IMG/VR virus record: IMGVR_UViG_3300023109_000011 | Coordinates: 1-64,000 of that record | DNA: 64,000 nucleotides | Strand: one strand, 5' to 3' | DNA from: a virus | Notes under the pieces: model-generated | Databases searched by the model: none | Told to the model about the DNA's origin: nothing | What the model saw: the letters and a program-made list of their open reading frames with translations, nothing else | Program-made: the position numbers and the translations under genes | Shown: positions 2,424 through 48,626 of the stretch, piece after piece | Layout of the letters: every line of letters begins with the position of its first letter | Numbering within the stretch: the first letter of the stretch is position 1

Positions 2424-2619
2424 CTTTACGCTGTTTAACGTTTCAATCATAAATCCTGTTACGTTCGAGACGATCGATCAAGGACAGATGCGTGCTTATC
2501 ATGCGCGTGAATTTATATTCGAGATGGAACAAAAACAAATCCCCACTTTGGTAGAATCCGCAGTGGGGAATGATGATCACGATCTTTCGTTCTTTATGGA
2601 ATATCTTTGCCCGGATTAA
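2413..2619 (+). CDS. small protein of unknown function, last rightward gene
   Basis: A 68-residue acidic protein that overlaps the previous gene by 11 bases. It ends at 2619 and meets the leftward transporter gene tail to tail with a 4-base overlap. Bases 2540-2569 within it form a hairpin that reads as an intrinsic terminator on the opposite strand. The internal phrase FETIDQGQMRAYHAREF has no family I can name. Confidence 0.6.
   Translation: MISDFTLFNVSIINPVTFETIDQGQMRAYHAREFIFEMEQKQIPTLVESAVGNDDHDLSFFMEYLCPD
2529..2569 (-). terminator. intrinsic terminator inside the convergent gene
   Basis: On the minus strand, TCCCCACT pairs with AGTGGGGA (8 bp, 2569-2562 with 2547-2540) around a 14-base loop. 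A T-rich tract, TTTGTTTTTG, follows immediately (2539-2530). It lies about 50 bases past the stop of the transporter gene and inside the reading frame of the opposite-strand gene, so it would end leftward late transcription. On the plus strand no U-tract follows, so it should act in one direction. Confidence 0.6.
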
Positions 2620-3581
2620 ACGGGATTGATCACATAATGTATTAGCAATACTAACGCAACAGATGCGCCAAGCCCAACCATCATCTTACCAAAGTCTTTG
2701 GCAACTAATGGGAATACAGACTTAGACTTCTTCTTGCCAAAATACGTAGCCATTGCAAGCTCACGCCCTGCTAACAAACCAACAAATACCCAAGTAGTAC
2801 TCATAGGAATATCATTTACTTCCTTGAATACAAATAAGCATAACCAATAAAATAGATCGATCAGTGTTGCGCTTCGTACATAACGAGTGTTGTGCTTTTC
2901 GAGTACGATCTGTTGAATCTTACCACCACGCTCTCTGAACATGAAGAACATGCCTGATACGAATACGGCAGAGATCATGATCATCAAATCTACAGGAACT
3001 ATGCGTGGTAAAAATACCGCAATATTTGCCATATCGTGTGACAACCAAGTCCACCAGAGGCCACCTGTCGCAAACCATTGAGCTATACGCCAATACTTCT
3101 TATTGTCCTCAGAAACAGGCTGCGTTTCATCGAACCAATGGCCTGCGTACTTTGTGATAGTAAACCATATAGCATAAGCAAATGCAGCTGCTACACCGTA
3201 GCCCATGATTGATTTCATTAGCATTTTTTCTAATACAAAGGTTGAAGCAAATACAGATAAGACCAAGAATGAAGTTGATACAGGTACACCAACTCGAGTT
3301 AAGAATACAAGGATTGCAGGAGCTGCTGCATGATACCATTGTACTTCTTGCCATGGAATTTTATTCAATCTTCCATAACTAATATCACCACCATTTACTG
3401 ACCAACCATACCATAATGTTACAAGTAGAACAGCACTTGCTGCTGCCCATAATGTTTTGTAGTTAAATCTCTCGTTGTTAGATGCCATCCATGTGCCGAG
3501 AGTTTGTACTGAATCATTTGCGATTACAGCGTATGCTGCAAATAGGAACCCAAGTGTGCTCCATAGTGTTAACATTTCCAT
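2616..3581 (-). CDS. PiT-like inorganic phosphate transporter
   Basis: A 321-residue polytopic membrane protein with about eight hydrophobic segments. Two inverted-repeat signature regions resemble the PiT (PHO4) family: IANDSVQTLGT at residues 20-30 with GVPVSTS at 98-104, and IPMSTTWVFVGLLAG near 258-272. PiT proteins carry the related patterns GANDVANxxGT and G-x-PVSTTH and couple phosphate to an ion gradient. It is shorter than typical bacterial PiT, which is about 400-500 residues. Its AAGGAG ribosome site overlaps the stop of the upstream porin-like gene, so the two form a coupled pair. Phosphate is inferred, and another anion such as sulfate is possible. Confidence 0.65.
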   Translation of the reverse strand: MEMLTLWSTLGFLFAAYAVIANDSVQTLGTWMASNNERFNYKTLWAAASAVLLVTLWYGWSVNGGDISYGRLNKIPWQEVQWYHAAAPAILVFLTRVGVPVSTSFLVLSVFASTFVLEKMLMKSIMGYGVAAAFAYAIWFTITKYAGHWFDETQPVSEDNKKYWRIAQWFATGGLWWTWLSHDMANIAVFLPRIVPVDLMIMISAVFVSGMFFMFRERGGKIQQIVLEKHNTRYVRSATLIDLFYWLCLFVFKEVNDIPMSTTWVFVGLLAGRELAMATYFGKKKSKSVFPLVAKDFGKMMVGLGASVALVLLIHYVINPV

Positions 3582-23482: not shown

Positions 23483-24958
23483 TTACTTGTTGTGTACTAC
23501 ATAACCATTTACTATATATGTATCGTTCCCTTGATCACTTTCAGAATCAGGGCCTTCAACGTCTACAGAGTAAATGTTACATTGGCTATACGTTTCATTT
23601 ATCGAAGTTATTGCTTCTTCGTAATAAGAATTCGTAATGAAATTATATTTGATTAGTCTATCGCCTATTTCAATTTTTGTTATATTTAACTCGGGCTGTT
23701 GACCTTGACCTGCTTCAGCATTAATACATTTCCATCCGTCGGTTGTTAAGAAAGGATGCGAGTCAGTAACAAAAGGTGTTTCAGCGTTAAAACCGTAGAG
23801 ATTATATCTACCTGTGCGCCTTCTAAAATCTAAAATCTTATTTTCTACATCATCATTTCCAATTGCTATTTCATCGGATTGAACATCAGATATTTCGTTA
23901 GTGATTTGCTGTGCTTTCCATCCGTGATAAGCTTCTTCCATAGCTACTAACTTAACATTATCTCCGTTTTTAAGAGCAATTTTAGACTCACCAGTAAAAC
24001 ACGACCCAGTTGATGTAGCAGTGGCCTGAGCCGTTATTCTAAACGTAGCTAGTGCTGTGTCGTCATATCCAGTAGCACGACCCCAAAGCGTAAACGAGTG
24101 ACCAACATTTGTCGTGGATTGATTACCACCACCGCCGGTAGCGGTAGCGATTCCACTACTTCCATAAACTGTCCAGCCAGTATGAGCGTTGCTTCCAGTT
24201 TTCCAGCCTGTGTCATTTAATGTAGGATTAGAAAGTGGACCATAAACAATCCTAACACCGGTTAGTGCTCCTGCGCTTACGAAACCTGCATAATCACCAG
24301 TAAATGCAATATAGGTGCCGCTACTAAGATAGTGAGTCGTATCACCGGTACCGCCGTAAAAATCGCCAGTGCCTATATCGGTGAGAGCGTCCGTATCCCA
24401 GCGAAGATATATTCTAGCTTCAGAGTTTGCTGCGCCGAAAGCGTCAAAGTTAACGGAGTCACTGTCTACCGCGACAAAGCCAATGGCAGGAGTATCATCC
24501 GCATTAAATGTTCCTGCAGGTATAGGGTTACCTGATGCTACAGGATCATCATATCCGAAATAAGAAGCTCGCAAATCAACACCTGACGTAGGAACACGAG
24601 CAGTACCTACTACCGTGATAAGCCAATATCTATGACTATTCCAAGTTGGCTCACCTGCAATAGGCCAGTATAAAGGACCTGTTTCCCTTTCATCAAATGC
24701 AGGATCATAAGCGTTCGAAGTTGTATCAAGTATGATATTAGTAATAGTACCGACACCATAGTTTGTAAACGTGTATGGATAGTTATTAGAACCCATAGTA
24801 ATTTTAACGAAAGAATGATCACAGTCAATACTGCCTTGGCCTGCACCTAGAGTTTGAATGTTAGCTTCGAGATCGAAGTGACGACCTTCCATATCGGCGA
24901 AGTTGATCAGATCACCGTTGTTTGCTATTAACTCTTGACCACCTACTTTAATTGCCAT
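23483..24958 (-). CDS. virion-type protein with C-terminal Hint (hedgehog/intein) domain
   Basis: A 491-residue protein in three parts. Residues 1-135 belong to a module shared with four neighbouring genes (GEPTWNSHRYWLITV). Residues 136-318 are beta-rich and Gly-rich, with a domain shared with the gene at 25828 (YGPLSNPTLNDTGWK). Residues 319-491 look like a Hint domain: Cys320 in GSCFTGESKIAL, a block-B-like TDSH at 398-401, and a C-terminal VVHNK with His489-Asn490. Hint domains rearrange the peptide bond before the first Cys, causing cleavage or ligation. No C-extein follows, so intein splicing is unlikely. Self-cleavage or covalent attachment is the more plausible outcome. Neither activity can be shown from sequence. 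Confidence 0.75.
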   Translation of the reverse strand: MAIKVGGQELIANNGDLINFADMEGRHFDLEANIQTLGAGQGSIDCDHSFVKITMGSNNYPYTFTNYGVGTITNIILDTTSNAYDPAFDERETGPLYWPIAGEPTWNSHRYWLITVVGTARVPTSGVDLRASYFGYDDPVASGNPIPAGTFNADDTPAIGFVAVDSDSVNFDAFGAANSEARIYLRWDTDALTDIGTGDFYGGTGDTTHYLSSGTYIAFTGDYAGFVSAGALTGVRIVYGPLSNPTLNDTGWKTGSNAHTGWTVYGSSGIATATGGGGNQSTTNVGHSFTLWGRATGYDDTALATFRITAQATATSTGSCFTGESKIALKNGDNVKLVAMEEAYHGWKAQQITNEISDVQSDEIAIGNDDVENKILDFRRRTGRYNLYGFNAETPFVTDSHPFLTTDGWKCINAEAGQGQQPELNITKIEIGDRLIKYNFITNSYYEEAITSINETYSQCNIYSVDVEGPDSESDQGNDTYIVNGYVVHNK

Positions 24959-28463: not shown

Positions 28464-29225
28464 CTAATCCCGTCGTTCGATGTCTTCTTCTGATAACTCG
28501 TCGCCTAGCCATACTTCAATAACTTTGGCAGGTTCTTCGCCTACATTGGTTGCTTTATGCCAAACACCAATTGGAATATCAATGCTTTGGCCTGCCCAAT
28601 AAATGCGAGACTCTTTTCGTTTGGTGGTTTCACCATAGTCGAGCTCCATTAAAATAGCACCTGATACTACATGCCAGTGCTCAGACCTTTTAAAATGTCG
28701 TTGATCGCTAAGTGATCTACCAACATCAAAGCTTAATTCTTTAACAGCCCATGTACAATTTGAATCAAGTACTTTATATGTACCCCATTTGCGTTGAGTC
28801 GTAGGTTGAGCCCATTCTTTTAATATCCAACTACTTGAATTCTTTTTATCTTCACCACCTACTCCGAATGCAAATTCAACATCTTCGAATATCATTTCTG
28901 GAATGTTTTCTTTAGTCCTATCACCACCATTAGCAAATACAATTACTTCGTTTTGATACTTTTCTTTTACTTGACGAATAGCATCAATAGCTGAGTCATC
29001 TGAATCATCAAACGCTATTACCTCATCTACACATGTCATTGCACTTAATATTGCAGCTCTTTCTGACCAAGGCATAAACTCTCTACCCTTTTTACGTCTA
29101 AGCCATTCGTCTGAGTTTACACCGACAACTAAACGAGTACCTTCCAGAGAAGCGTTTTGCAAGTAGGCAATATGTCCACTGTGTATTGGATCAAAGCCTC
29201 CTGTTACAATTACGGTTATCATCAT
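28464..29225 (-). CDS. bifunctional nucleotidyltransferase-cupin protein
   Basis: A 253-residue fusion. Residues 1-130 are an HxGH nucleotidyltransferase (GGFDPIHSGHIAYLQ, HSGH at 15-18; VVGVNSDEW) like those that activate sugar phosphates or polyol phosphates. Residues about 135-250 form a cupin resembling the phosphomannose isomerase type II or GDP-mannose enzyme C-terminal domain (SEHWHVVSGAILMEL, PIGVWHKATNVG). The metal-binding His residues expected in a cupin are present. The start overlaps the preceding gene in an ATGATG junction. The substrate is unknown. It probably makes or edits an activated sugar, together with the neighbouring methyltransferase and glycosidase-like genes. Confidence 0.8.
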   Translation of the reverse strand: MMITVIVTGGFDPIHSGHIAYLQNASLEGTRLVVGVNSDEWLRRKKGREFMPWSERAAILSAMTCVDEVIAFDDSDDSAIDAIRQVKEKYQNEVIVFANGGDRTKENIPEMIFEDVEFAFGVGGEDKKNSSSWILKEWAQPTTQRKWGTYKVLDSNCTWAVKELSFDVGRSLSDQRHFKRSEHWHVVSGAILMELDYGETTKRKESRIYWAGQSIDIPIGVWHKATNVGEEPAKVIEVWLGDELSEEDIERRD

Positions 29226-30457
29226 AATACCCTCTCATTTTCTTCTGTTAATTCTTCCATAAAGTAGTCCCACACAAAGTTTACATCACCACCTTTCGTT
29301 CTCATTAGTGGATCGATGTCTACAATATCAGGATGCACAAACCAATCTTCATATGAGTACAACTCATTCATAGCTAAATCATTTACCATTAAGATGTAGC
29401 CATGCTCTTTCAAGATGCTTCTAGCCTCATCTCGTCTTTCAGGTCCAGATCTATATGCATCATGTTCAAAGGTGATTACGCCAAACTTGTGGGTCTCCAG
29501 CGGTAGTCTTTTAAGAGTATCTAAAGAAGCGTCGTCACAATCAATTTGCAGATAGTCGGTATGATGATTAACGCAATGCTTATCGAATAAGTCTGAGTAT
29601 CCTATCTGACGAGCATCAGCATTAATGATTGTATTAAGACGTTCTTCTCTAAACTTATAACATAGTGCTGGCTTCATATCGATACTAATTCCTTTCCAGC
29701 CAAAGTCTTTCTCTAACAATGCTGTATTACTATGTATGATCGGATCACCGGAACCAATTTCAAGATATGTGCCATTGCGCTTACCATTGAGACAAGCTAA
29801 TACAAACATGTCTTGCATATGCTTAGAATAGTTTCTATCAATTGTTTCATAGCCTGGGAAAGGATATTTGAAACGATGCTTATCTTCATGTTGAAATTGA
29901 AGAACATCAGGAAAACCTACTTGTGTCATAAGCTTATGGACTTTCCATTTAAAATCTGGATCATCTTCAATATAAGTTTTACCGTAAAAGTCAAACATTT
30001 CTCTACGGCCTTGCTGAGTTCCAGTAATATACCACTTTGCCATAGCCTTTTGAAATGCCATGTGCTTGATGCCAGGATATTCTACACCAATATCATCGAA
30101 ATAATGGGCTTTCATACCAACGGTGGCAAAATAGTAAGATTGCTTCCATGCTTGACGATCTTCATAAAAACGAGAAAGGTAATAGAGAGCTTCAGGTCTT
30201 TCTGGAAATATAGCTGCCGCATCCATATAAGCACCTTCGACAGTATAACCTCTATTTCCTTGTCGATTATAACAACGACCAATTTGGATCATGGCTTTAT
30301 ATTGAAGAAGTCTATCTTGAGTAAGATCGGCTGCTTTTAAATAAAGAGAGATTGCCATTGCACCGTTTTTAATTCGATCATATTCTTCAGCAAGGTCATA
30401 TACCTTTTGCGGATTTTTAGGATCAAGGCAATGTTTGTTTAATAATTCTTGTAACAT
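29222..30457 (-). CDS. TPR-FkbM-like methyltransferase
   Basis: A 411-residue protein. Residues 1-130 form helical hairpins of TPR type (AISLYLKAADLTQD, YKAMIQIGRCYNRQGN, LYYLSRFYEDRQAWKQSYYF). From about residue 215 there is a SAM-dependent methyltransferase domain with motif I YLEIGSGD (231-238), followed by GWKGISIDMKPALC and LQIDCDDASLDTLKRL, in the style of the FkbM family. FkbM-type enzymes methylate sugar hydroxyls in antibiotics and glycans. Fusion of TPR repeats with such an enzyme suggests a protein- or glycan-bound target. It is translationally coupled to the gene downstream and sits three bases after the glycosidase-like gene. Confidence 0.75.
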   Translation of the reverse strand: MLQELLNKHCLDPKNPQKVYDLAEEYDRIKNGAMAISLYLKAADLTQDRLLQYKAMIQIGRCYNRQGNRGYTVEGAYMDAAAIFPERPEALYYLSRFYEDRQAWKQSYYFATVGMKAHYFDDIGVEYPGIKHMAFQKAMAKWYITGTQQGRREMFDFYGKTYIEDDPDFKWKVHKLMTQVGFPDVLQFQHEDKHRFKYPFPGYETIDRNYSKHMQDMFVLACLNGKRNGTYLEIGSGDPIIHSNTALLEKDFGWKGISIDMKPALCYKFREERLNTIINADARQIGYSDLFDKHCVNHHTDYLQIDCDDASLDTLKRLPLETHKFGVITFEHDAYRSGPERRDEARSILKEHGYILMVNDLAMNELYSYEDWFVHPDIVDIDPLMRTKGGDVNFVWDYFMEELTEENERVL

Positions 30458-30460
30458 AAT

Positions 30461-31495
30461 TTAGCCCCTCGCCACAAAGTCAAAGAAAACGTCTTCAGGC
30501 ATTTTCAGTATATAAGTTCCGTTGTCTTGATAGCCGTAAGCAATCAATACATTACCATCAATAAACGTTATTCCCGTTGCAAACTCGATGTTATATTCAT
30601 AGCCACTAGAGTAATCAATTTGAGTACCCATGAAGTGGAAGTCTTCAGTGTTATGAATAATATTCCAATCCTCATCCCATACAATTACTCGATGATTGTA
30701 GTGACCATCCTTTCGATAAAATACGTCTTTAAGCAAGTCAACTTCGTGAGTAAGACACATGCGTCTACCATCACCAATTGGAAAAACCTGTGTACCACCA
30801 CGTAGATCTCGACCAAATTGTGTGTAGAACTTATCATGCTCGCAATGAACTGTTTCAGTAGTGCGTTCTTCAATGTTGTACTTTATAACTTCGGTTGGAT
30901 TACACCACTTGACAAAATGGAATGGCATGTCAATAACAGGCATCCAATTCTTTTCGCAATAAGTATCATCTTCGCCTGGAGCAGGAATAGGATTACGAGA
31001 TACTTCTTGCCACTCGTTATCAATCCATTCAATCTCACACATTTCCATACGACCTTTGCCTTTGTCATCATAGCAATCACGCCGAACACCACAAAGATAT
31101 AGACGTCCTTCCCATGCAAACAGACGACCATCTTCAAGACCAATAAAGTTCCATGTAGGATCAGTATCAAGATTCATTTTAATGCGGCTGGCTTTTATCA
31201 CATTCATATTACCATCGAGCTCACACATAATATTGTGAGTCCTTAAAGTAACATCGTTTTCAGGATGAATGTATTGCAGTGGTCCCCAAGTATGTGGGAA
31301 CTGCTTACCTTCTGAGTGGTAGAGAGTATAATTAACGTGGCGAACGTTCATAAGAATCCGACCTTCATGTACGAAGATCGAAGGATTCATTATGCCGGTT
31401 TCATTCGTTAACTCGTGGGGTAGCGTGATTGGATGTATACTACCGCCTCTTTGCAGAGCGTAGTACACAAGGCCGTGATGGCGCAGATCATGCAT
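30461..31495 (-). CDS. GH130-like five-bladed beta-propeller protein
   Basis: Start at ATG 31495, with GGAGG five bases upstream, rather than ATG 31507, giving 344 residues. The repeated blade pattern and phrases such as MNPSIFVHEGRILMNVRHVN, FIGLEDGRLFAWEGRLYLCG and WMPVIDMPFHFVKWCNPTEV resemble the GH130 family (mannoside phosphorylases) and related GH43/32 propellers. The acidic LEDGR segment matches the conserved E-D-x-R region. It could cleave or phosphorolyse a mannoside, or act as a sugar-binding propeller. A perfect sigma70 promoter lies just upstream, which is unusual inside a late region. It is followed by the methyltransferase and nucleotidyltransferase-cupin genes with almost no gaps. 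Confidence 0.7.
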   Translation of the reverse strand: MHDLRHHGLVYYALQRGGSIHPITLPHELTNETGIMNPSIFVHEGRILMNVRHVNYTLYHSEGKQFPHTWGPLQYIHPENDVTLRTHNIMCELDGNMNVIKASRIKMNLDTDPTWNFIGLEDGRLFAWEGRLYLCGVRRDCYDDKGKGRMEMCEIEWIDNEWQEVSRNPIPAPGEDDTYCEKNWMPVIDMPFHFVKWCNPTEVIKYNIEERTTETVHCEHDKFYTQFGRDLRGGTQVFPIGDGRRMCLTHEVDLLKDVFYRKDGHYNHRVIVWDEDWNIIHNTEDFHFMGTQIDYSSGYEYNIEFATGITFIDGNVLIAYGYQDNGTYILKMPEDVFFDFVARG

Positions 31496-31542
31496 ATATG
31501 CCTCCATAATAAAAATGCAAATACGTTATAATTTAATGAACT

Positions 31543-31950: not shown

Positions 31951-32361
31951 TTACTCTCCATCATCCGTTGGAGCAGGCTCAAGAGGTGCTGGTGGAACAG
32001 GTGTTACTGGCTCACCGCCCCAAGGCATTTCATGAACTTCTTCTTCTTGCTCTATATCGATTTGATTCATGATACGCTCATCGATGTGCTCTTTGTAAGG
32101 AGGATCGTTATTCACGACATTCTGAATCCAACCTAGAACATCTTCTTCTTGAAGAGATTCAAATGAAGTAAATTCACCAGCTGGAACTGCTGCTGCAGTG
32201 AAAGGAGTTGCACCAGCAAACTCACCTTGCTTTCCGTCGCTGTCTGTTCCAACTACTTTCCAATATGTTTGTACGACTGCTCCTTGGAGCGTGTCACCGT
32301 CTGCGTTAACTTGATCTCGCTTTTTGAGACCAGTAACTGACCATGTATACGTTAATGCCAT
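31951..32361 (-). CDS. small phage protein with Pro-rich tail, paralogue of its neighbour
   Basis: A 136-residue paralogue of the 110-residue protein downstream. Residues 1-105 align along the whole length, and the last 25 residues are an acidic, Pro-rich tail (PVTPVPPAPLEPAPTDDGE) absent from the neighbour. It has an exact late promoter box 41 bases upstream. The pair may form a homo- or hetero-oligomer. Its place between the fibre genes and the enzyme island gives no firm role. Confidence 0.65.
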   Translation of the reverse strand: MALTYTWSVTGLKKRDQVNADGDTLQGAVVQTYWKVVGTDSDGKQGEFAGATPFTAAAVPAGEFTSFESLQEEDVLGWIQNVVNNDPPYKEHIDERIMNQIDIEQEEEVHEMPWGGEPVTPVPPAPLEPAPTDDGE

Positions 32362-32418: not shown

Positions 32419-32604
32419 CTATTTATTAAAAAAAGACTGTTCATCTACATCATGCTTACCAATTGGGCATGTGTTTCCTTTTAGTCTCGCTTTGAGAGTC
32501 ATAATACATTTGCAGACATTGCATTGCCTAAGCTTTGCATTGTACTTTTCACAACTCTCGCATATCTCGATTTTGCGCTGGTATGTTTTTCTATCGACTA
32601 ACAT
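32419..32604 (-). CDS. small zinc-ribbon protein
   Basis: A 61-residue protein with a four-plus-one Cys pattern, CESCEKYNAKLRQCNVCKCI, and a final TCPIGKH. This is the pattern of a small zinc-ribbon family I recall from many phages, in which the segment ends CPIGKW. The start is set at ATG 32604, matching the usual family beginning before a Tyr/Arg-rich helix, although no strong ribosome site is visible. Longer in-frame starts exist at 32619 and 32673. It overlaps the end of the halogenase gene by 14 bases, so translation is probably coupled. Its role is unknown. Confidence 0.7.
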   Translation of the reverse strand: MLVDRKTYQRKIEICESCEKYNAKLRQCNVCKCIMTLKARLKGNTCPIGKHDVDEQSFFNK

Positions 32605-34078
32605 TGGCGCTATAATCATTTTCAAGCAATGCTTGTTGAACAAAGATATGCTTATTTTCTTTGTCGGTATCAAACTGCTTAGCGCAGTGTTCTTTGTTGA
32701 ATGTCATACTATCATACACATCTTTATATATGTCAGATGGTAGCATTCGTATTCCTTGCATCACCTGATACCAAGATGAAGCATTGAAAAAGCGATCAAT
32801 AATGTCAGCAGCACCTAGAGGATACTTAGACCATTTTGCTAAATCTTTTTGTAAACCAGGAGGTGCTTTTTCTACTGAGAATTTATTCCAAAACTCAGTG
32901 TCATTGCGTTCCGTTATATAGTGCAAGTAAACAAAATTATGAATCTCTTTTGAAATATCATTCCACTTTTCGTTAAACTGATCTCGATAAGTATCGTCTA
33001 AGTCAAGTAATAGATTAGGCATAATGATCGACTCAACAATTGACATTGAAGTTGAGAATATCGATGTAGCTTCAAGTGGTTCAATAAATCCAGCAGAAAG
33101 TCCTAATGCAATACAGTTACCTATCCAAGCTTTTTCGTAATAGCCTGATTCAAATTTAAAAACAGTGTCTGGTATTTTAGCGTTAGGAAATTTTTCAAGT
33201 ATTTCCTTTCGAACTTCTTCATCAGAAATAAAGCTGCTATCAAAAGTATATCCACACCCATAACGTTCTTGAGTAGGAATAACCCAGCACCATCCATATT
33301 TCATTGCTATTGATTCTGTATAAGGAGGTAATACATCTTCTTCATGTGGTATAATAAATGGTATTGCACGATCTACGGTTTTATAATCGTTAAAGTCAAT
33401 CCACTTGGGATTCAATTTAGAGATAATAGTTTTTCGAAATCCTGTACAATCATATACTATATCACATTCGTACTCATGATTTTTAGATAATAACTTTTGT
33501 ACTATATCACCATCGAGTACTACATCTTCAATAATATCATCAACTATTTTAATACCACGAGCACCACCTTGTTCTCTTAGAAAGGATGCTAGCATTTTAG
33601 CGTCAAAATGTAATGCAAAAGGTTCGACAATTTCTAAAGCATCATTCTGCATCATAAAAGGATTCTTACGATCTTTACACATCATATACTGTAATGTTGA
33701 TTCAGCAATATGCTCGTCTCGTTTGATTGATTCAAGTATTCGAATAGGAACATAGCTTTGTCTTATATTCGAAGGATGATCATGTAAGTCAGCATTGGAA
33801 TGAAAGATGTGATAATAATCTTCGCCATCACCGTTCCAGTTATCAAAACGAATCGCATGTTTTGTAGTAGCACTACAGAATCTTACTAGAGCCATATAAT
33901 CGATTTGAATCATATCTAATATATCGAGAATGTTAGGTACTGTTCCTTCACCTGCTCCTAACACACCTATTGCTGAGCTTTCAATTACTGTAACTTGACA
34001 ATCAGGTATATATCTTTCAGCAAAGAGTGCTGCAAGCCAACCGGCTGTGCCACCACCCACAATCACAACATTTTTCAT
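32591..34078 (-). CDS. flavin-dependent tryptophan-halogenase-family enzyme
   Basis: A 495-residue protein with the features of the PrnA/RebH family. These are the FAD-binding motif GGGTAGW (8-14), the WxWxIP motif WCWVIP (263-268), the Lys73 equivalent of the catalytic Lys79 of PrnA in TTKHAIRF, and a PLEATS segment with Glu336 at the place of PrnA Glu346. These enzymes use FADH2, oxygen and halide to make hypohalous acid, held near Lys, which halogenates an aromatic ring. A related cyanophage enzyme (VirX1) has been described as a viral halogenase with iodide preference. It overlaps the upstream gene in an ATGA junction. The substrate is unknown: free Trp, a small molecule or a protein residue. 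Confidence 0.9.
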   Translation of the reverse strand: MKNVVIVGGGTAGWLAALFAERYIPDCQVTVIESSAIGVLGAGEGTVPNILDILDMIQIDYMALVRFCSATTKHAIRFDNWNGDGEDYYHIFHSNADLHDHPSNIRQSYVPIRILESIKRDEHIAESTLQYMMCKDRKNPFMMQNDALEIVEPFALHFDAKMLASFLREQGGARGIKIVDDIIEDVVLDGDIVQKLLSKNHEYECDIVYDCTGFRKTIISKLNPKWIDFNDYKTVDRAIPFIIPHEEDVLPPYTESIAMKYGWCWVIPTQERYGCGYTFDSSFISDEEVRKEILEKFPNAKIPDTVFKFESGYYEKAWIGNCIALGLSAGFIEPLEATSIFSTSMSIVESIIMPNLLLDLDDTYRDQFNEKWNDISKEIHNFVYLHYITERNDTEFWNKFSVEKAPPGLQKDLAKWSKYPLGAADIIDRFFNASSWYQVMQGIRMLPSDIYKDVYDSMTFNKEHCAKQFDTDKENKHIFVQQALLENDYSANVSR

Positions 34079-34872
34079 TTATATTCTTTCCTATGCCAAA
34101 ACCAAGTCTTATATCTATTACGGCTTAATGTACCTTCGATCAGTTTGTCTGATTTTGTGAATTCAATGTTTTGTTCTGGTGTCATTATATGCTGGACTTC
34201 ATGCGTCCACTTTTCTCGTTTGAAAGGTATAATTTGAACCATAGGACTGCCACCTTTAATAATGAACTCGTCGCCAGGTTTACATTTCAACATAGCTGGA
34301 AATAAGATATTCGTCTGATAAACGTCAGTGTCAACTACACCAGATTGTACTTCCCACTTATCAATCCCTTGGTGTTGAGGATGTAAGAACATGCAAGAAA
34401 TACCGGGAGGTGTTTTCATAACCCAAGGATTAATAAACTTATAAACCTTATCTGCGCTATAACCTTGTTTCCAATAGGGATGCTCAGACGTTTGTGATCG
34501 AGCATGAAATCCAATTGGTTCATGACCATCTAATTCTTTTACACCGGTATGTATGCCTATAACTTCTTCACCAGAATCTGGATCTATTATACATTTAACT
34601 GCAATATCATAGGGGAAAGGAATGATATATCCACTCGTCATCATTTCACGAAATGGAATGCATCTTTTAACTGTAGGAGTATAAGCAGGCCGGATACTAT
34701 CTTCGACGAAGACGTGAGTTTTGGATTCTCTACCCGAGTAAGGTTTTTGATTCTTAAACCATTCAGGTATAAATTTCATCGCAGGCGCTGGCTCGTGAGC
34801 CATAGGTCCTAGATTTGAAGTGAAGGTCACTTCGTTTTTTCTTGTTAGCCAAGATTTCAAAAGACTAAACAT
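34075..34872 (-). CDS. unknown protein coupled to the halogenase gene
   Basis: Start at ATG 34872 with GGAG six bases upstream, rather than the earlier ATG 34884, giving 265 residues. The protein is soluble, with many aromatic and Pro residues. Phrases include NLGPMAHEPAPAMKFIPEWF, TPPGISCMFLHPQHQGID and SGVVDTDVYQTNILFPAML. I have the impression of a family that occurs in phages and bacteria, but it has no known activity. The HPQHQG and VDTD patterns could be a metal or 2-oxoglutarate-type site, which is speculative. Translational coupling with the halogenase suggests that the two work on the same substrate. Confidence 0.7.
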   Translation of the reverse strand: MFSLLKSWLTRKNEVTFTSNLGPMAHEPAPAMKFIPEWFKNQKPYSGRESKTHVFVEDSIRPAYTPTVKRCIPFREMMTSGYIIPFPYDIAVKCIIDPDSGEEVIGIHTGVKELDGHEPIGFHARSQTSEHPYWKQGYSADKVYKFINPWVMKTPPGISCMFLHPQHQGIDKWEVQSGVVDTDVYQTNILFPAMLKCKPGDEFIIKGGSPMVQIIPFKREKWTHEVQHIMTPEQNIEFTKSDKLIEGTLSRNRYKTWFWHRKEYK

Positions 34873-34888
34873 AATATACTCCAAAAAA

Positions 34889-35269
34889 TTAGGTTGGTAC
34901 TATAGATTCCCCGCCTGATACGGTATTAATATCTATATTACCATTCAACCAATTATCTAGCATGACTTCAAGAGGTCCGGTCGTTTCATGAGCACCAAGT
35001 GCTTCCCACATTCTATAACCGTTTTCAAAATTTAATATTGAAGGAACAACAGGAGGCGCACATAAAGGAAGGGTAAGATCATCTGCTTCGAGCTTACAAA
35101 AATTAATGCCTGGATAATCGGCTACTATATTTTCAATTGCTTCTTCCCATGCAGCACAACCAGCACAGCCGGGATTAACCAGCATGACCGAATCTAATAT
35201 AAGAGTAGAACGATCTTCAGGGCCTCGTTTAGCCAGCAATTCTTCTGCAGTAACATAGGGTAAAGCCAT
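34889..35269 (-). CDS. thioredoxin-like protein with CAGC motif
   Basis: A 126-residue protein with a thioredoxin-like pattern: beta strand LILDSVMLV, active-site-like Cys35-Ala-Gly-Cys38 after NPG, helix AAWEEAIENIVADYPGINFC, and cis-Pro-like VVPSIL (Pro76). The motif CAGC differs from the usual CGPC. A C-terminal helix carries LEVMLDNWL. It may be a redox partner or disulfide reductase for nearby enzymes, or a structural copy. It lies between the Cys-rich protein and the halogenase partner gene, with gaps of about 12 and 16 bases. Confidence 0.7.
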   Translation of the reverse strand: MALPYVTAEELLAKRGPEDRSTLILDSVMLVNPGCAGCAAWEEAIENIVADYPGINFCKLEADDLTLPLCAPPVVPSILNFENGYRMWEALGAHETTGPLEVMLDNWLNGNIDINTVSGGESIVPT

Positions 35270-35281
35270 AATATTTCCTTT

Positions 35282-35833
35282 TTATGTATAACCATTAGAG
35301 GTTGCTGTTACGCCATTATAATAGCATCTATTCACTGATACTTTCATATACGCATTACCACCACAACCATAATCTTTTTCCATGAAAAACATCCAAGCGC
35401 CATCGTAGTGAAAGACACCGACTCTACCGTTTTGGTTATTAGGATTCACGTTATTATTGTTTGTGCGACCTTCATAACTAAAACCACCCGGGCAATTAGC
35501 TGGAGTTCTGTAATTTGCGCTATTCGAGTTCCAATTCCAACACGGCCCATTTCCAATTTGAGCGGTGTTATTATAGAGTCTCCGAGTTGACGTATAACCG
35601 TACGTGCTAGTCCCTAAGTTGTATTGTCTGCCATCACCATATACCCGTCCACCTGAATCTTGAAATTCGTTCCATATTGAATATCTTTCGGCGGCAGTTT
35701 GTTCACCTAAAAACATATTGCTACTGTCTGTATTATAAACAATACACCAGCGATAACGCTCAGGTCTGTTGCCATCATTGCCTGGCCCGTATCGACTAAG
35801 ATAACGTTGACCTGATGGTAATACTCTGCTCAT
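35282..35833 (-). CDS. Cys/Trp/Asn-rich protein of unknown function
   Basis: A 183-residue protein with no signal peptide, very rich in Asn, Gly, Tyr, Trp and Cys. Examples are YRWCIVYNTDSSNMF, GPCWNWNSNSANYR, ANCPGGFSYEG and HYDGAWMFFMEKDYGCGG. The five cysteines and repeated aromatic-glycine patterns suggest a compact, disulfide-stabilised beta fold such as a lectin- or adhesin-like tip. It lies between the sulfotransferase and the thioredoxin-like gene. It could be a virion tip protein or even the substrate of the nearby halogenase or sulfotransferase. Both ideas are inference. I recognise no family. Confidence 0.65.
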   Translation of the reverse strand: MSRVLPSGQRYLSRYGPGNDGNRPERYRWCIVYNTDSSNMFLGEQTAAERYSIWNEFQDSGGRVYGDGRQYNLGTSTYGYTSTRRLYNNTAQIGNGPCWNWNSNSANYRTPANCPGGFSYEGRTNNNNVNPNNQNGRVGVFHYDGAWMFFMEKDYGCGGNAYMKVSVNRCYYNGVTATSNGYT

Positions 35834-35842
35834 TTTATTCCT

Positions 35843-36628
35843 CTACAATATGTTAAACTGAGAATATTTTGTAAACAAATCGTCGCCTAATACTTTTCTT
35901 GGATCTTGAGATATTTTCTCAATTTTAGGACGAACAACGTGAAGATCTTTTATTCCCCAGTTTTCATCCGGCTCCTCGAGGTATGTTTGTACATTTTCAA
36001 AATCATGTTTTGGAGGATCAAGTTCAAGATACTCCCATATATCGTTCATAGTTTGTTCTGTATTATTTATAAGATCATCGTAATTTACAATATGAACTAA
36101 ATGCGGAAACCTATCAATTGCGCCTTTACAACTTTCATAGCCATAGTCTTTAAAATTATTCCATATTTGCTCAGTGCGATTCTCAGTATTAATTTTTATG
36201 TTTTCTTTAAAAAGCTGAACGTCAACGTGGTTCTTAGGATCTTTATCCATTAAGGTAATAAACGACGTTAAAATGTCAGGAATAGGTCTATAGGTAACTA
36301 TTACTTTTGGTGTTGGGTTAATAAATGCTTCTATAGCTTGTATATTATAACCCCATCCTCGGCTTTTGTCAACTATATACTTCTTTTTTACCGGTGAGTA
36401 CCAACCTTCAAACATATACTTAAATATGCGCTGATTCATTTCATCCATGTCCCAGTCACCGCGATATCCATTTTCTTGCAACACACCATATAGATCATGC
36501 ATAACACGGTTCAACGGACTGGTCGCAGAGACATAAAATTCTGGATGCTGGGAAAGCAAGGAACCGAGTAAAGTAGATCCGGTCCTTGGCATTCCCGTAA
36601 GATAAAAATACCGACTCATATCAAACAT
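35843..36628 (-). CDS. PAPS-dependent sulfotransferase
   Basis: A 261-residue protein of the sulfotransferase superfamily. The 5'-phosphosulfate-binding loop is TGMPRTGST (11-19). KVIVTYRPIPDILTSF matches the second conserved region, which contacts the 3'-phosphate. The helix-strand order fits the family. Such enzymes move sulfate from PAPS to hydroxyls or amines of sugars, lipids or tyrosines. The start at 36628 has GAAGGG seven bases upstream. It follows the giant fibre gene by three bases, so it is in the same operon. Possible targets are fibre tyrosines, a surface glycan or a host metabolite. Confidence 0.85.
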   Translation of the reverse strand: MFDMSRYFYLTGMPRTGSTLLGSLLSQHPEFYVSATSPLNRVMHDLYGVLQENGYRGDWDMDEMNQRIFKYMFEGWYSPVKKKYIVDKSRGWGYNIQAIEAFINPTPKVIVTYRPIPDILTSFITLMDKDPKNHVDVQLFKENIKINTENRTEQIWNNFKDYGYESCKGAIDRFPHLVHIVNYDDLINNTEQTMNDIWEYLELDPPKHDFENVQTYLEEPDENWGIKDLHVVRPKIEKISQDPRKVLGDDLFTKYSQFNIL

Positions 36629-36631
36629 AAT

Positions 36632-39600
36632 TTAACCCTTCAATAGTTGTTGTACCATTCCTTTCAATTCTTCAATTTGGTTGGCTTGACTATCGATTTG
36701 CTCTTGTTGTTCTTTAACTGCTTCAACTAAGAGACCAACCAGGTGTCCGTATTCAATAGAAAGAACATCTTCAATACCATCGTTATGAGCTGGTTTAGAT
36801 GCCGGTGCATTTGGATCATCACTTGTATTATCAGACGTGTCTTGTACAACAACAACTTCTGGAATAACTTCTTGAACTTCCTGAGCAATAAGACCAATAT
36901 CCTTATCACCCGAGTCTTTCCAGTTATATTCAACACCGCGAAGTTTCTTAACTTTATCTACAGCGTTTTCAATAGTAACAATATTCTCTTTTAGCCTTTC
37001 ATCAGAAGAGTAGAAGAAGCCTTGAGCCTGAATACCATTTGTACGAGTACGAAGTTTTTCAGAACCGTCGTGGTAAAGAATACAGTAAGAGTTGAGATCG
37101 AATCTCATCATCCATTCGTTATTAACGTCGTTGTACATACCAGCAACGCCGCCATTGTTGTGCATCATTACAACACGATCACCAATCGAGAATCCTTCGT
37201 ATCCGCCGCGTGACGCGCCATCAACACAGAATGAACCATAGTTACCATCAGGTGATCTTAATACAACACCATCATTCAGAGTAATACGACCCATTCGAGA
37301 AGTATTCTCTGTTCCTCGAATGTCAATTAACATGGCGGTGTTACTTCTGTAATATCGAAGACCGTTATCCTGAACAGTAGCATTGACATACATTGTTCCA
37401 CCTACATACCAGTTAATATATGTAGAATATCCAGACCTTGAATCTAAATGTAAGTTACCATTAGTTGTTGCAACAGAAGCATAAGAACCAGTCCAATGTC
37501 CGTTACCACCAACATACAGATATTGTCCCCAAGATGGGTTAGGTCCATGTAATGTACCACCTCGAATACGAAGGGCAGAGTTACTTGTTGAGTTAGGATC
37601 TAAGTAGTAGCCAGTATCGTTCCAATCATAATAAATTGGAGTACGAACATCAGAACTGAATACCGCTCTACTTGATATAGCAGCTCTAAATGAACCATTG
37701 TTAATAATCAACATACCATGGTCATTCAGTTGATTCGCACCACCTAGTCCACCAGCATTTGGATGTGACCAACCAATACCGTACATATTTGCAGCAGAGG
37801 TACCAGCAGAGTTCGGTCTATAAGAGGAACCCATTGCGAATACTAATTGTAATCTTGTAGAAGTATATGTTCCGGTTACACCTAATCCATAATTGTTAAA
37901 TGTGTGATAACCGTTTTGATTAGTGGTATTGATTATAGAAGTACTCGCCGGATCGATATAATAACCAGTATTATTAGTATCGTAATACCGGCCTGCATAC
38001 ATTGAACCACCGTTACCATTGTTTTCATCAAGTACCGGAATTGTTCTCCAAGTTCTCCAACCACCCCATGCACTTCTGAATCGTAAGTTGGTAATTGGTC
38101 CACCAACCATCTGCCAGCCATAACCACTTGTGTTAGAACTACGATAGTGATATGATTGAATGCCAACCCAGTGAGAAGTACCTGAAGGCTGGTTGCCTGG
38201 ATTAGACCAAGAATCAATAAAGCCTGAACCCCAAGTACTAACAACGTTCATGTCCTGGGTTCCCCAACCCATTGCACCAGTCCAATAGTTGGTATCTGAT
38301 GTTATTCGAGGACGTGCTCTATAGTACTCACCACTATTACGCGTATGGCCAGGCTGATTGATCCAAGCCATCGTACGGTTGTTAACACCTTCAAATCTTG
38401 TGCTGTGACCAGATGCTGGATCAATGTAGTAACCACTATTGTTTGAATCGTAGAAGATAGTACCGTAAATAGCACCATCACTACCAAAGTACTTGCTACC
38501 GTTCCAGTAGTTTTCTTTCAGAATGGCTCGGCCATTCATGTACATTTCATTTACGTTAAAGTAGAAGTTACTACGATCGGTGTAAATGTGTGCGTGAGAA
38601 CCGTTAGCCGGACCAAACTCGATGTATCCATAAGGAGTCTGGTGTCTCCATCCCCAAGAACCGCCATGTAAGTAGTATCCACTGTTTCCGTAATCAATAC
38701 TTGACAGTCGACTTCTTCCTGCTGGATCACAGAAGTAGTTCGAGTTATTTGAATCATAGAAGATATCAGCGTAAAGACCACCGGTGTTATTGCTGTTTTC
38801 TCCCATTACTGGAATTGTACGCCAAGTTCTAAATGATGACCAAGTACTACGGAATCTTAAGTTAGTAACTGGTCCACCAACCATCTGCCAACCATATCGA
38901 GCTGAACCATTAGTATAGTGGTATGCCTGCATTCCAACCCAGTGAGATGTACCTGAAGGCTGGTTGCCTGGATTACTCCAAGAATCAATAAAGCCTGAAC
39001 CCCAGTCGGCAACCGTGTTCATGTCAACACGGCTCCAACCCATTGCGCCGGTCCAGTAGTTCGTGTCACCTGTAATACGAGGACGTGCTTTGTAGTATTC
39101 AGCACTTGATCTTGTTTGACCAGATAGTGCCTGGAATGCCATTGTTAAGTTATCTACACCACGGAATCTTGAACTATTATCTGAAGCACCATTCCAACGA
39201 TAACCAGTATCATCTAAATCATAGAAGAGTGGAGCACGAGCAGAACCACGCATGACTGTATAGCCATAAGTAAATTCATTATAACTTCCATTCCAATAGT
39301 ATATCCAACCACGACTATTGTCGTGTATACCTACGTTATCGCCGCCAGTTGACATGAACACGTGGCGAGAACCGATACCCCAACCTGACCAGCCGTTTCG
39401 ACCAGTATTATATGTAGTTACGTTACCGTAAGAGTTACCACCTGCTTCTGGAGCCCACATTCCCTTTCCATAATCTTGGAAGTAGAATCCAGTACTGCCT
39501 TGAGCACGGAACCAGTTATTAGCGAGAACGTAGTGGAACTGAGACGTTGAATTAAAGTTTCCGTAATATCCAGTGTTGTCACGATCATAGAAAATCGGAG

Positions 39601-42600
39601 CTCGAATATCTGAGATGTGATCTAAGTAGTCAGTATTAATTCTGCTGTATGTCGTGTTTTGATAACGAACATCGAGCATTGTAGTGTTGTCAGAACTAAT
39701 TGAGTCACTATCAATAACAGTTCTTGCTTGCAATCTAATGTAGTCTGAAGAACCTAGACCATCGTTTTCAGAACCAATAACCATGGCTCCATTTTCACCA
39801 GTGTTATCATAGTCTGGATCATATGTAATGTAACCAAAGTCAGAAGGTGCATTAACACCTGAACGGAAGTAGAGTGATACCGGTTGATCGTTACCTGAGT
39901 GGAATTCAGCAGCAACATTACCCATGTACTCGGCAAGTCGCCCGCCGGCGTAAGCGGCTGATCCACCTGAATCACCTTCTCGACCTATGAACTGAGTACG
40001 ACCATAGAACTCAACTCGCTGTAATCTGGATGTACCATTAGGATCGAGATAACGACCTGTGTTATTAGTATCATAGAAGATTGGAGCACGGAATGATCCA
40101 AACGTACTAACATAACCAAGAGAGTTATTAATGTAGCCGTCGTATGCTAAGTACCATGCTTGTGTTGGGTAACTATCATTACCACCGATTGCTGCATACC
40201 AGCTTGATCTTCCACCGCCCCATCCACTTGCATACTTATAAAGTCCAGTGTTAACATGAGTGCGATAACCAGAACTATAAAGAGCAGTCTGGTGAGTAAG
40301 TGGTAAGTAACGACTTGTTCCACCGACATTGTAATCTCTATTACGAGTAGAAATTGGAGCGTTAGTCAATCCACTGATTGATGTTGACCAGTAATCTGTC
40401 GGATCATTAGCGTAGAATTGACCATTAGATGTTAATGTACTAACAACTTCTAATGTATTAAGTCTTGTATTTGAACGAGGATCAGTGTAGTAAGCACTAT
40501 CATTATAGTCATACATGATTGGAACATCAAGACGACCACTTATTAAGACCTGACCGTTACCACGAATAATTTGGTTCCAAGATCCACCGAATCCACCATC
40601 ACGGAAGATAATGTCTTCGTTACCTGACGTTGCAAATTCGAAGTGAGAATCATCAGACTCAGTTGCACGAATATATCCACGTAAGTTACCTGAACTTGTA
40701 TAGAAGTAAGCAGGTGCACCACCAAGATAGTTAATTCGATCTACACTCAGTGTATTCATTCTCGATGTTGAGTTAGGATCTGCGTAGTAGTTCGTGTTAT
40801 CACTATCATAGTAACGTTTTGCGTACATATCCCCAGTGTTAATATTCTGGTTGTATGTTGCAGTTACCTTCATCACTATCGTACGTTCTTTAGTACGACC
40901 TCCAGGCAGGCTAGAGTTTGTAATGTTAGTTACAAGGTTACGATCATCACCACCTGCGTCTCGTACGTGCACCGAGAAAGAGTTCCAGTAAGAAACACGT
41001 GGCCACCAGAAATGTAGTGTTCCGTTATATTGGAACACTTGCATGTCAGCAAAGCCAGGCTTACCAAAGTGCTGTCCAGAATAGTTGATAATAGTATCGT
41101 AGTACAAGTAACCCTGAGCAGTAAAGCTAAATGGTGGATCACCCGAGTAAGACTTACCTGTTGCTTCAAGTACGAACGAAGCACCGCTAGTTGCCGTCGC
41201 AGGAATACTTGTTGATACTAACGTACCTAATGTAAAGTCAGAACCTGAATGTCTATAAGTTCTTACATAATTTCCGCGGAGACGCAGATCATACAACTCA
41301 GATGTATTATCACCATGTATGTAGTAGTTTGTATTATTTCGATCATAGAAAATTGGAGCTCTAAACGAGTTTTCAGTATACACCTGTCGGTCATTTTGGA
41401 TCCACATAATGGAAACGTTATTACCGCTACTCCAACCACGACCAATACCATAGTGTGGGTTTGTTTGGTTAGGTGAATAACCGAAGTGTAATGATGTTGC
41501 ATTAGTACCAGCAATACCAATTACCCAATGCTTAAAGTTACCTGAAGAAGCATTTGCACTATCGTAAGCAGCAAATCTTAATGTTGGACCGTGAGTACCA
41601 TTACTAATCTGAGTCGACATAAGATTCAACTGAGGATACTGGCCTTTAATAACCAGATCCGGCCTGTTGAGCGCTGAGCCTTCCAAGATTCCGTTATATA
41701 AATTAGTTTCGTCACCAATATGTAATCTATGAACTATACGCTGTTGTAAGAATCTTGAAGTAGCATTTGGATTAGCATAGTAAGCAGTATCTTGGATGTC
41801 ATAGAATATCTGAGCTCTTGCGTCTCCAGCCATAACATATAAGTTACTACTTTCAACACGAGTGTGTGTATCACCTCGACCGACAGAGAATAGCAGAGAA
41901 CTTAAATCTTCGTTGTTGTAGAAACGAGTACCACCGTAGACTGCCTGAGCACCCATACGAATACCTGTATGCCACCTTAGATCAAGCTTGGTGTAGTTGC
42001 CACCGTAGTTTTCCATGTTGGTGCCGATGAAATAATTGCCTGCAGCATTACTATCACCACCACCAAACATTAACCTTGCACCAGTGGTGCTACTGTATGG
42101 GTTGTTTTGGAATGTACCACCAATTACAACTTGACCAGCAGTTCGCATACTATTAATTCGCGATTCTGCGTGAGGATTCGTGTAGTAAGCAGTGTCATCA
42201 GTATCGTAGAAAATTGGAGCTCTTACACTTGCAGCCGATTCAATAATACCTTGAGCATCAATACGATCGAGTGCGCGGATATCATCTGCTAACAAATTAG
42301 ATTCAGCATTACGTCGCTTAAGCATAATACCACCGTATTGGCGAAGAGCGCCACCGGCATTATAGTTCATTAAGATACGAATTCTTACATAGTAACAACC
42401 ACCGCCGTCTGAACCATTATAAGGTGTATGTGATGATGGTATTGTTGTATGACCACGTTGTGTCTGCCAACTAGTGTTCGTAAAATTGCTACCGCCAGAT
42501 ACGAAGTATGTTGTACCTGTGTTACCAGCAATAGCTCTCTTCTGACTATCAAATCTTTCAATACCGTAGTATAATAAACCACCTGAGCCTGAAATTAGTT

Positions 42601-45600
42601 TATGGGAAATCTCACCATAAATCTCTTCACCTGGGGCAACAGGAATATAATCAGAGTAGAATGTTCTATAAGCGGCCGATTGAAGAACATATGATCCAGC
42701 AAATGGACCGTCTGTTGTTCTTACAAATTCTGATGTCGTACCTGTAAGAGCGCTTTCGTTATCTGCCATTGGCTTAATAACACGCTTGTCAAAGTATTCT
42801 GTAGCATCAAATAGTACTAAGTCTGCTCCACCTGAACCGTATGACTTAATAAGACCAATGTTTTCGTTTCCACCATTTAGTAAGAAGTTACCAGCAGAAA
42901 CATTACCGATGAAGTGTGCATTACCGTTATCAAGGTCAATACTTGCTCTTAATTGACCTGAACCTACAAATACAATCTCATTTGGATTAGAAGTACTAAA
43001 GTGTGAATAAGCAGGATTATCATTACCAGCCCAGAAGATACCCCAGTTGCTAGCTGTTTGCCAGATCCAGTGAGTATAATCTTGAGCTCTTAATAGAACA
43101 TTATTACTGCCATTGCCCGAAGTTTGGAATCCTAATCTATCGTAAATGCCATTGACGCGAACGGCCGTGCTTGTGTTTCCACTTGCAAAGTTTCCATAAT
43201 AGTTCGTGTCATTTGAATCATAATAGATTGGTGCTCGCATTTGGTTATTAGCGAGGAAATAACCATTTTCTGTTTCAGCCTGTTTTGTGCCATTAAAGTG
43301 AAGCTCAGTAGATCCACCACGACGCCAGATTGTCATCCATTCATTGTCGATGTCATTGTAGATGCCGGCCTCATCAGCACTGCTTGACATGAATACAAAT
43401 CTGTCAGCAATAGAATAACCTTGCCATCCACCTTTACCACTACCATGAACAGACATTGAACCGTAATTACCGCCCGGCCAATCCATGTAAGTATCAGTAC
43501 TATTATCGTATGCAAAATAAATTCGGTTTGTTCTCAGCGTAGCAAGACGAGAAGTACTGTTTGGATCCACAAAATAGTTAGTGTCATTTCGATCATAGAA
43601 GAGCGGTGCTCGCATATCGCCAGTAACCTGAAGGATACCTGACGCTGCAGTAAAGAACATTCGAGCGGCACCAGAGCCGTAACCAACGTTACCCCATTCA
43701 AATTCTTGTGCATCAGATGCTAGTGTGCCTGATGTTCTATTGTATAAACGAGACTGCCAAGAACCATAATTTGTAGTACTTACACCGAAGTAAATATTGG
43801 TAGCGCCGCGTACTGCAACAGGGCCAGCAATATCTAAAGTAGCATTAGTTACAATACTCGATGTCGAGCCTACCGTTAGTTGATTAAGTACTGAACGGCT
43901 AGCGAAGTCACCATAGTATGCAGTGTTATTGCTGTCATAGAATATTGGTGCTCTAACGTCGCTATAATGACTCAAGTAATCAGTATTGATTATTGCAAGC
44001 TCAGTCAGTGCTGATCCATTCTTACGATAGAATCTAAAGTCACCACCATATTCCATAAATGAAATTCTATCAAGCAGAGCATATCCGGTTGTAGCATTAG
44101 TTGGATAACCTCTAAAGATGATACCGTGGTATTCATCATTGTGACCGTTTAATAAGCCATAAGATCCATTTGAAATAGTAAGTCTGTTAAGTCTATTATC
44201 AGCAAGTCCACTTCCATTAGGATTTAAACGATATGTGGTATCGTCCATATCGTAGAAGACTTGAGTCGTTATTTGTGATGACTTAAATTTCTCGTAACCA
44301 GTTCCTGGGTTATTTCTTATTGCGATCGTACCATCTGATTCAATAGCAATGTTCGATGCTACAACACCACCCCAATGGAATCCAAGATAAGGAGGAGTTG
44401 CTGCTCCTGTTGCTGTGTAATTACTTTCTCTTAATTCGATTGAAGCAGTAGAATAACCTGTGCCTGTTGAAGATGAAGCAAACTCAAAGTTGCCGAGTAG
44501 TTTAGCACCGTCGCCAGGTTCAATGTAATATGCTGTAGAATTAGAATCATAGTAACGAGGTGCATAAACATTGACTGCAAAGTCTGCAGAATTATTATCG
44601 ATGTTGAAGCGCTGGGTGCCGTTTGTCCAAATTCTAAATGTATCGTTTGCTTCAAAACCAAAGAATGTATTTGTATCACCACGATGACGAATGTAGTCGT
44701 CGATGTCGATACGATTCATCTGAGATGTGCCAGCAAAGTCACCATAATAGTTTACATCATCTGAATCATAAACTATACTAAAGTATGCAGAGCCGGTCGA
44801 GTATAATGCTTTGTTATTTCGTACGCGGAGGTACGTGGCATCGGTCATATACCAACCGCCGCCCCATCCGAATCCTAATTCTTCGTCTTTCAGGAATGAA
44901 GATGTACCACGTCCAAATACAATAGCATCATCATTACCATTAAGTTGAATACCACCATTGACATGTAGTTTGCTATTTGTTATACTACCAACTAATGGAG
45001 TATTATCCATTGAGGTGTATGTTACAGAAGAACCGCCAACTATGACGTTATTATTAGTTTCCTCAGCAACAAGAATTTCACCACCACCGGTATCCCAGAA
45101 TCCTGCGGTTGTACCTGCTGGTGGAACAATGTAGAAGTTTCCGCTTGAGTCACCTCTAAACTGAGTTCCGTTAGCACCATCATGGTAGAAATTAATGTAT
45201 CGATTACCGTTAGCATAAGGATTGGCGCTAGCATCGATAATGTTCATGTACATCAATGCGTATCCACCGGCCGAGTTACCACTAATTCCTACCGTGGTAT
45301 TTTGACCAGAAGCATATGAACCGTGGTTCATTAACGAGATGCCACCGTTGCCTGTGCTATCATCCCATCTTGCAGCATCGGAGACATTACCGATTAACAC
45401 CTTACCATTCAATGTGGCAGCGGTGTCTGTAGAAGCAGGATCTACAAAGTAAGCGCCATCGCTTCGATCGACAAATCTATTTGCAAGTAAGTCGCTAAAG
45501 ACTGTTGTATTTGTGTTGGTAATGTTTACACGTTCGACATTATCAGTAACAAAAGTAATACTATCATCGGCATCAAAACCTAGATAAGTAGTCGTGTCAC

Positions 45601-48586: not shown

Positions 48587-48626
48587 ACGGTTCACTCTCC
48601 CCAGATTGGCGGTTTAAATTATTCAA

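Follow-up and report, generated by a model that had tools for sequence, protein, structure and literature searches.

Flavin-dependent halogenases use reduced flavin, O2 and a halide to produce hypohalous acid, which is delivered via a lysine residue. Halogenases of phages are already published, and so is a cyanophage cluster in which a halogenase is combined with dioxygenases. Halogenases are reported for 20 of 153 cyanophages (PMC10452541), and two other studies also list them (PMC3037559, PMC2984593). VirX1 (PDB 6qgm), encoded by CPUG_00131 of cyanophage Syn10, has been described as the first viral halogenase to be characterised, and as a trimer with a large open active site that prefers iodide and accepts many small aromatics in vitro (PMC8407142); no other characterised viral halogenase was found in the literature. 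In cyanophage S-SSM6a, secondary-metabolite or capsule tailoring has been proposed for a cluster that encodes a halogenase together with 2OG oxygenases and carbamoyltransferases (PMC7824862). Here we describe, in a T4-like aquatic phage, a halogenase from a mostly viral branch of the family, the predicted fold of its partner protein and the linkage of this partner to halogenases, and the empty site of the corresponding cassette in related phages, all three of which are new.

The window analysed here is a stretch of 64,000 nucleotides, corresponding to positions 1 to 64,000 of the 98,112-base virus record IMGVR_UViG_3300023109_000011. The contig is a phage, because T4-like terminase, portal, sheath and capsid genes are present on its minus strand, and the halogenase is therefore phage-encoded, as the original prediction had stated. 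The closest isolate relative of the terminase is found in Sinorhizobium phage phiM12 (59%), and so the phage is not simply a cyanophage. The capsid genes are accompanied by a gene for a multi-pass membrane protein (2616-3581), which looks faintly phosphate-permease-like by eye and has no Pfam, PHROG or NCBIfam match.

The halogenase gene (32591-34078, minus strand) has an ATG start and encodes a 495 amino acid long protein, which was assigned by Pfam, PHROG, motif alignment and an AF2 model. Pfam PF04820 (Trp_halogenase) matches residues 3-450 over profile positions 1-449 of 458 (E=3.2e-101, 339.9 bits, cut-off 21), and PHROG 2928 (phrog_2928, 'tryptophan halogenase') matches at 2.8e-97. In the alignment, the FAD motif GxGxxG is represented by GGGTAGW at residues 8-14, with Gly8, Gly10 and Gly13 invariant; Lys73 aligns with Lys75 of PyrH and is invariant in 28 viral sequences; and HxF is found at residues 90-92, within YYHIF (88-92). 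The WxWxIP motif reads WCWVIP (263-268), and the catalytic glutamate is Glu336 in PLEATS (334-339), at the PLES/PLEA position. The earlier reading as a flavin-dependent halogenase with its catalytic residues at the family positions is thus borne out. The AF2 model has a mean pLDDT of 91.5 with one disordered loop (95-107), and its best 50 PDB matches are all tryptophan-halogenase-family structures, with a TM score of 0.89 to PyrH and of about 0.86-0.90 across PyrH, PrnA, Thal and RebH. Like these enzymes, the modelled protein has the lysine, the glutamate, WxWxIP and HxF, whereas it is only about 27% identical to them and is encoded in a phage rather than in a natural-product context. The match of the predicted structure and of the family profile is far beyond chance. 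A near-identical contig (L002) differs from the window only by N and is therefore uninformative on selection.

QhpG acts on a protein tryptophan, and both the LodB and the QhpG models of NCBIfam match the N terminus of the window enzyme, as could be expected if the enzyme were a non-halogenating flavin monooxygenase of this type, oxidising a protein side chain. However, these matches are confined to about residues 3-65 and reach 27.2 bits for LodB against a cut-off of 400, and 19.6 bits for QhpG against a cut-off of 240. As the catalytic lysine, the glutamate and WxWxIP are all retained, and the nearest solved structures are halogenases, such an activity is very improbable. Concerning the acceptor, the region aligned to PyrH YPYYHGFETYSW, the place of a YYxxFE segment that relates to the amino-acid part of tryptophan, is not conserved in the window enzyme, while HxF is retained. 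This region aligns poorly and differs in bacterial members as well, including the solved bacterial structure 9luq, and its loss is therefore weak evidence, hinting only weakly that the acceptor may be something other than free tryptophan.

The original prediction had proposed a phylogeny with VirX1 and bacterial halogenases, and this analysis places the window enzyme in a mostly viral branch apart from both. The tree contained 75 rows, with the 80 loci nearest to the window enzyme as the bacterial sample and five solved structures added; no LodB/QhpG-type sequence was among the rows. A grouping with non-halogenating monooxygenases, which the original prediction had named as a refuting outcome, was not observed with these rows. 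The window enzyme pairs with the halogenase of locus L015 (support 95/82), and both lie inside a 19-row branch together with the halogenase of Pelagibacter phage HTVC008M (support 100/98). On one side of a split with 100/100 support there is a mostly viral group of 39 rows, and on the other are the bacterial enzymes, RebH, PyrH and the VirX1 clade. A single clade comprising all phage halogenases was rejected (p-AU 8e-23); together with the split, this speaks against a close kinship with VirX1, which shares the motifs of a viral flavin-dependent halogenase with the window enzyme but is only 26% identical and belongs to a different clade. The HTVC008M enzyme is the best GenBank phage match to the window enzyme (36%); its gene adjoins the large terminase gene and follows a dioxygenase gene, and the phrog_7084 partner discussed below is absent from that record.

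No characterised enzyme is present in the branch of the window enzyme among the 75 rows, a statement that is valid for this sample because the bacteria are represented by the 80 nearest loci and the solved structures by five. A virus-only branch was considered and rejected, since two bacterial contigs fall inside it (L095 1958-3460 and L096 4433-6013), which is why we call it mostly viral. Both are genuine, ordinary-looking MAG contigs (Burkholderiaceae and Rhodobacter), and their halogenases are located near transporter genes. A profile-guided scan of IMG/VR identified at least 592 halogenase-encoding stretches. Several phages encode an array of three or four halogenases that belong to different clades (L003 9998-14475, L077 and L089), with 2OG oxygenases, partner homologues and DUF6171-like zinc ribbons in between.

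Comparison with related contigs delimits a discrete cargo cassette of six genes at 32419-36628, all on the minus strand. It is considered discrete because, in 17 related contigs (G023 and L261-L276), the same site is empty or occupied by one small gene, so that the tail-fibre gene is followed by the DUF7936 gene directly or after that gene. In the window, the upstream border is formed by a 3987-aa tail-fibre protein (36632-48595, minus strand), which is Tyr-rich, with repeats of the FYDxNDTxYYxDPxSTS type and an intramolecular-chaperone-like C terminus. The downstream border is the DUF7936 gene (31951-32361, minus strand), which is kept in relatives without the cassette. The first cassette gene encodes a sulfotransferase-family protein (35843-36628; PF13469 at 2.7e-17) and is followed by the gene for a Tyr/Asn/Gly-rich protein of 183 amino acids with 9.8% Tyr, possibly a fibre tip or adhesin (35282-35833), and by that for a thioredoxin-like protein with a CAGC motif (34889-35269), which is 34% identical to the annotated thioredoxin of Vibrio phage Va2 in a stretch of 68 aa. 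The partner and halogenase genes come next, and the last gene encodes a zinc-ribbon protein (32419-32673; phrog_13558, weak DUF6171) whose start overlaps the halogenase end; homologues of it are found near halogenases at the loci L003, L049/L050 and L055. Neither a scaffold-building enzyme nor a 2OG oxygenase was recognised in the cassette, and the window record as a whole has no match to two 2OG profiles. Among 40 records with related terminases, the only one with a halogenase is the same near-identical phage.

The expected gene setting, with tail fibres upstream and sugar-type genes downstream, was found. The latter, however, are not part of the halogenase unit: the module at 28464-31507 (minus strand) encodes proteins of 348 aa (no Pfam or PHROG family), 411 aa (weak PHROG match) and 253 aa (nucleotidyltransferase-cupin), is located outside the cassette and, being conserved in halogenase-free relatives as well, belongs to the lineage core. 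The cassette itself may be composite, because in Vibrio phage Va2 (L277 5959-6843) a fibre-like protein is immediately followed by a homologue of the 183-aa protein and then by a thioredoxin, without a halogenase, which suggests a fibre tip-thioredoxin mini-module that is independent of halogenases. Inside the sulfotransferase gene, a perfect sigma-70-like promoter (36372-36344, minus strand; TTGACA, 17 nt, TATAAT; 12/12) is directed towards the genes for the 183-aa protein, the thioredoxin, the partner and the halogenase. Elsewhere in the window, a protein encoded downstream of fibre-like genes (23483-24958) has a C-terminal part that by eye resembles a self-processing Hint (hedgehog/intein) domain, with a VVHNK-type end, and no PHROG or NCBIfam match, and a collagen-like tail fibre of 1829 aa (57546-63035) has a chaperone-like C terminus in addition to long GxQG repeats.

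The partner gene (34075-34884, minus strand; likely ATG start at 34872) is coupled to the halogenase gene as predicted: its last codon overlaps the halogenase start via ATGA, with AGGAAAG upstream. The product matches phrog_7084 at 2.6e-47 (profile positions 7-239 of 240), its relatives give weak matches to Pfam DUF6065, and a profile of the viral partners finds alphaproteobacterial DUF6065 members at 1e-12 to 1e-18. No paper on DUF6065 was found, and the open-access literature, in which most subscription journals are not included, yielded no description of the partner, of its fold or of its connection to VirX1.

Because the partner has no meaningful sequence match in PDB, structure prediction was needed; the segments GVVDTDVY and GGSPMVQIIPF raised the suspicion of a dUTPase-like fold. 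In an AF2 model built from a 22-sequence alignment (pLDDT 76, pTM 0.74), the best 50 PDB matches all belong to the dUTPase/dCTP-deaminase superfamily, most with a probability of 0.95-1.00, although, with a best E of 1.4e-3 and a TM to target of at most 0.69, the matches are modest. Against BFVD, the own family comes first and named dUTPases then predominate. Profile comparison with four phage dUTPase-family proteins (hhalign) yields E values of about 1e-3 at a probability of about 20%, but places dUTPase motifs 3 and 4 in register with the partner segments, so that an Asp of the partner aligns with the motif-3 Asp and a G-x-P-x-x-Q segment with motif 4. A dUTPase-like fold is thus moderately supported. 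The partner is probably not a working dUTPase, because the motif-2 PRSS (serine/arginine) block is missing and true dUTPases coexist with it in relatives; moreover, Pfam dUTPase (PF00692) matches neither the partner nor any other protein of the 98-kb record.

The original prediction had also set the locus apart from that of VirX1, which holds in part. At both loci, the halogenase gene is downstream of fibre-region genes and overlaps a gene for a phrog_7084 protein; in Syn10, CPUG_00131 also follows another halogenase gene, and CPUG_00130, which overlaps it by 17 nt, matches phrog_7084 at 1.8e-71. The difference lies in the 2OG-oxygenase-type genes that run on after the VirX1 locus only, and in the order of the pair, as the partner gene is downstream of the halogenase gene in Syn10 and upstream of it in the window. 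The S-SSM6a cluster resembles the window cassette as a phage-borne set of tailoring enzymes that includes a halogenase, but the window cassette lacks its 2OG oxygenases and carbamoyltransferases, and the available text on that cluster does not mention a dUTPase-fold partner (PMC7824862).

For the partner, scanning IMG/VR with a single protein gave no match, and a pattern scan was precluded by the divergence of its alignment; partner loci were therefore drawn from halogenase neighbourhoods. Within 5 kb of the halogenase, a partner homologue was present at 22 of 88 viral loci and a 2OG oxygenase at 45 of 88, in comparison to none and three, respectively, of the 66 bacterial loci in which the ORF caller recovered the halogenase (of 80 GC-rich loci). 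Terminase-lineage controls had neither (0/80 for each), and the Fisher p values of 2e-6 for the partner and 6e-11 for the 2OG oxygenases overstate the association because the loci are related. The ORFs of partner and halogenase overlap in nine viral loci, that of VirX1 among them, and the halogenases to which the partner is linked come from several clades; some viral halogenase loci also carry sulfotransferases or carbamoyltransferases. Thus, the partner is a recurrent halogenase companion. It is not an obligatory one, as phrog_7084 is absent from five of the six GenBank halogenase phages whose complete records were examined, and its homologues also occur without a nearby halogenase, both in alphaproteobacteria (0 of 14 inspected DUF6065 loci) and in haloarchaeal viruses.

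These results can be combined with the chemistry of the family into a proposed mechanism. FADH2 supplied by the host would react with O2 to a flavin hydroperoxide, which would oxidise the halide to hypohalous acid; this would pass to Lys73, which together with Glu336 would deliver the halogen to an electron-rich ring. A PF01613 flavin reductase was detected neither in the 98-kb record nor in seven other halogenase-phage records, and the reductant therefore comes from another source, presumably the host. Rather than free tryptophan, the acceptor may be an indole or phenol that is larger or is held in another way, the partner may bind either the halogenase or its acceptor, or else a nucleotide-linked carrier, and the halogenase and the other cassette enzymes would tailor a molecule that is made during infection. 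We consider this overall account of a genuine cargo halogenase of a T4-like phage that uses host FADH2 likely, and are less sure of its parts on the acceptor and on the binding partner.

As for the target of halogenation, we rank the tailoring of a small molecule first, a virion protein second and a nucleotide third. The cassette might make or alter a halogenated metabolite, such as a signal, a toxin or an inhibitor of competitors, in the infected cell. The frequent 2OG oxygenases and the occasional sulfotransferases or carbamoyltransferases at viral halogenase loci fit this role, as do the tailoring function proposed for the S-SSM6a cluster (PMC7824862) and the small aromatics reported as in vitro substrates of VirX1 (PMC8407142). 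Because the cassette itself contains neither a recognised scaffold-building enzyme nor a 2OG oxygenase, we regard a small-molecule target as a reasonable candidate that falls somewhat short of an even chance.

The halogenase could instead act on a virion protein, at tryptophan or tyrosine residues in the tail fibre or in the 183-aa protein, and thereby alter adhesion or stability. Peptide-tryptophan halogenases such as MibH exist, the cassette directly follows the Tyr-rich fibre gene and encodes a second Tyr-rich protein, and the halogenase genes of VirX1 and of phage DSL-LC01 are also located after fibre or collagen-like genes. The large open active site described for VirX1 would likewise be compatible with a protein acceptor (PMC8407142). 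However, Va2 carries the 183-aa/thioredoxin pair without a halogenase, the halogenases of HTVC008M and P-SSM2 are encoded beside the terminase or among non-fibre genes, and of 89 halogenase loci only a few have large or fibre-like genes nearby, so that modification of a virion protein is possible but rather unlikely. A general co-location of halogenase and fibre genes was rejected by simple motif and size scans of the same 89 loci. A nucleotide or nucleic acid that is bound or hydrolysed by the partner would suit its predicted dUTPase-like fold, the Asp at the motif-3 position and the G-x-P-x-x-Q segment at motif 4, and some partner genes are found near ribonucleotide reductase genes. Yet the absence of the serine/arginine block of motif 2 and of a Pfam dUTPase match, the true dUTPases in relatives and the lack of any recognised nucleobase-modification gene in the cassette make such an acceptor improbable.

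For the biology of the family, the mostly viral branch, to which at least 590 stretches in one viral collection are related, represents a pool of uncharacterised halogenases, and the comparison with the empty site makes the cassette a clean and testable genetic unit. For VirX1, the homologous overlapping partner, which also accompanies halogenases of other clades, provides a testable reason why assays of the lone enzyme may have missed the native substrate. It is conceivable, though doubtful at present, that phage halogenases of several separate clades, including VirX1, act as two-component systems together with a dUTPase-fold protein that forms trimers and presents the true acceptor. If so, the natural substrate of viral halogenases would be unlike any tested, and would be a protein or a nucleotide-linked molecule.
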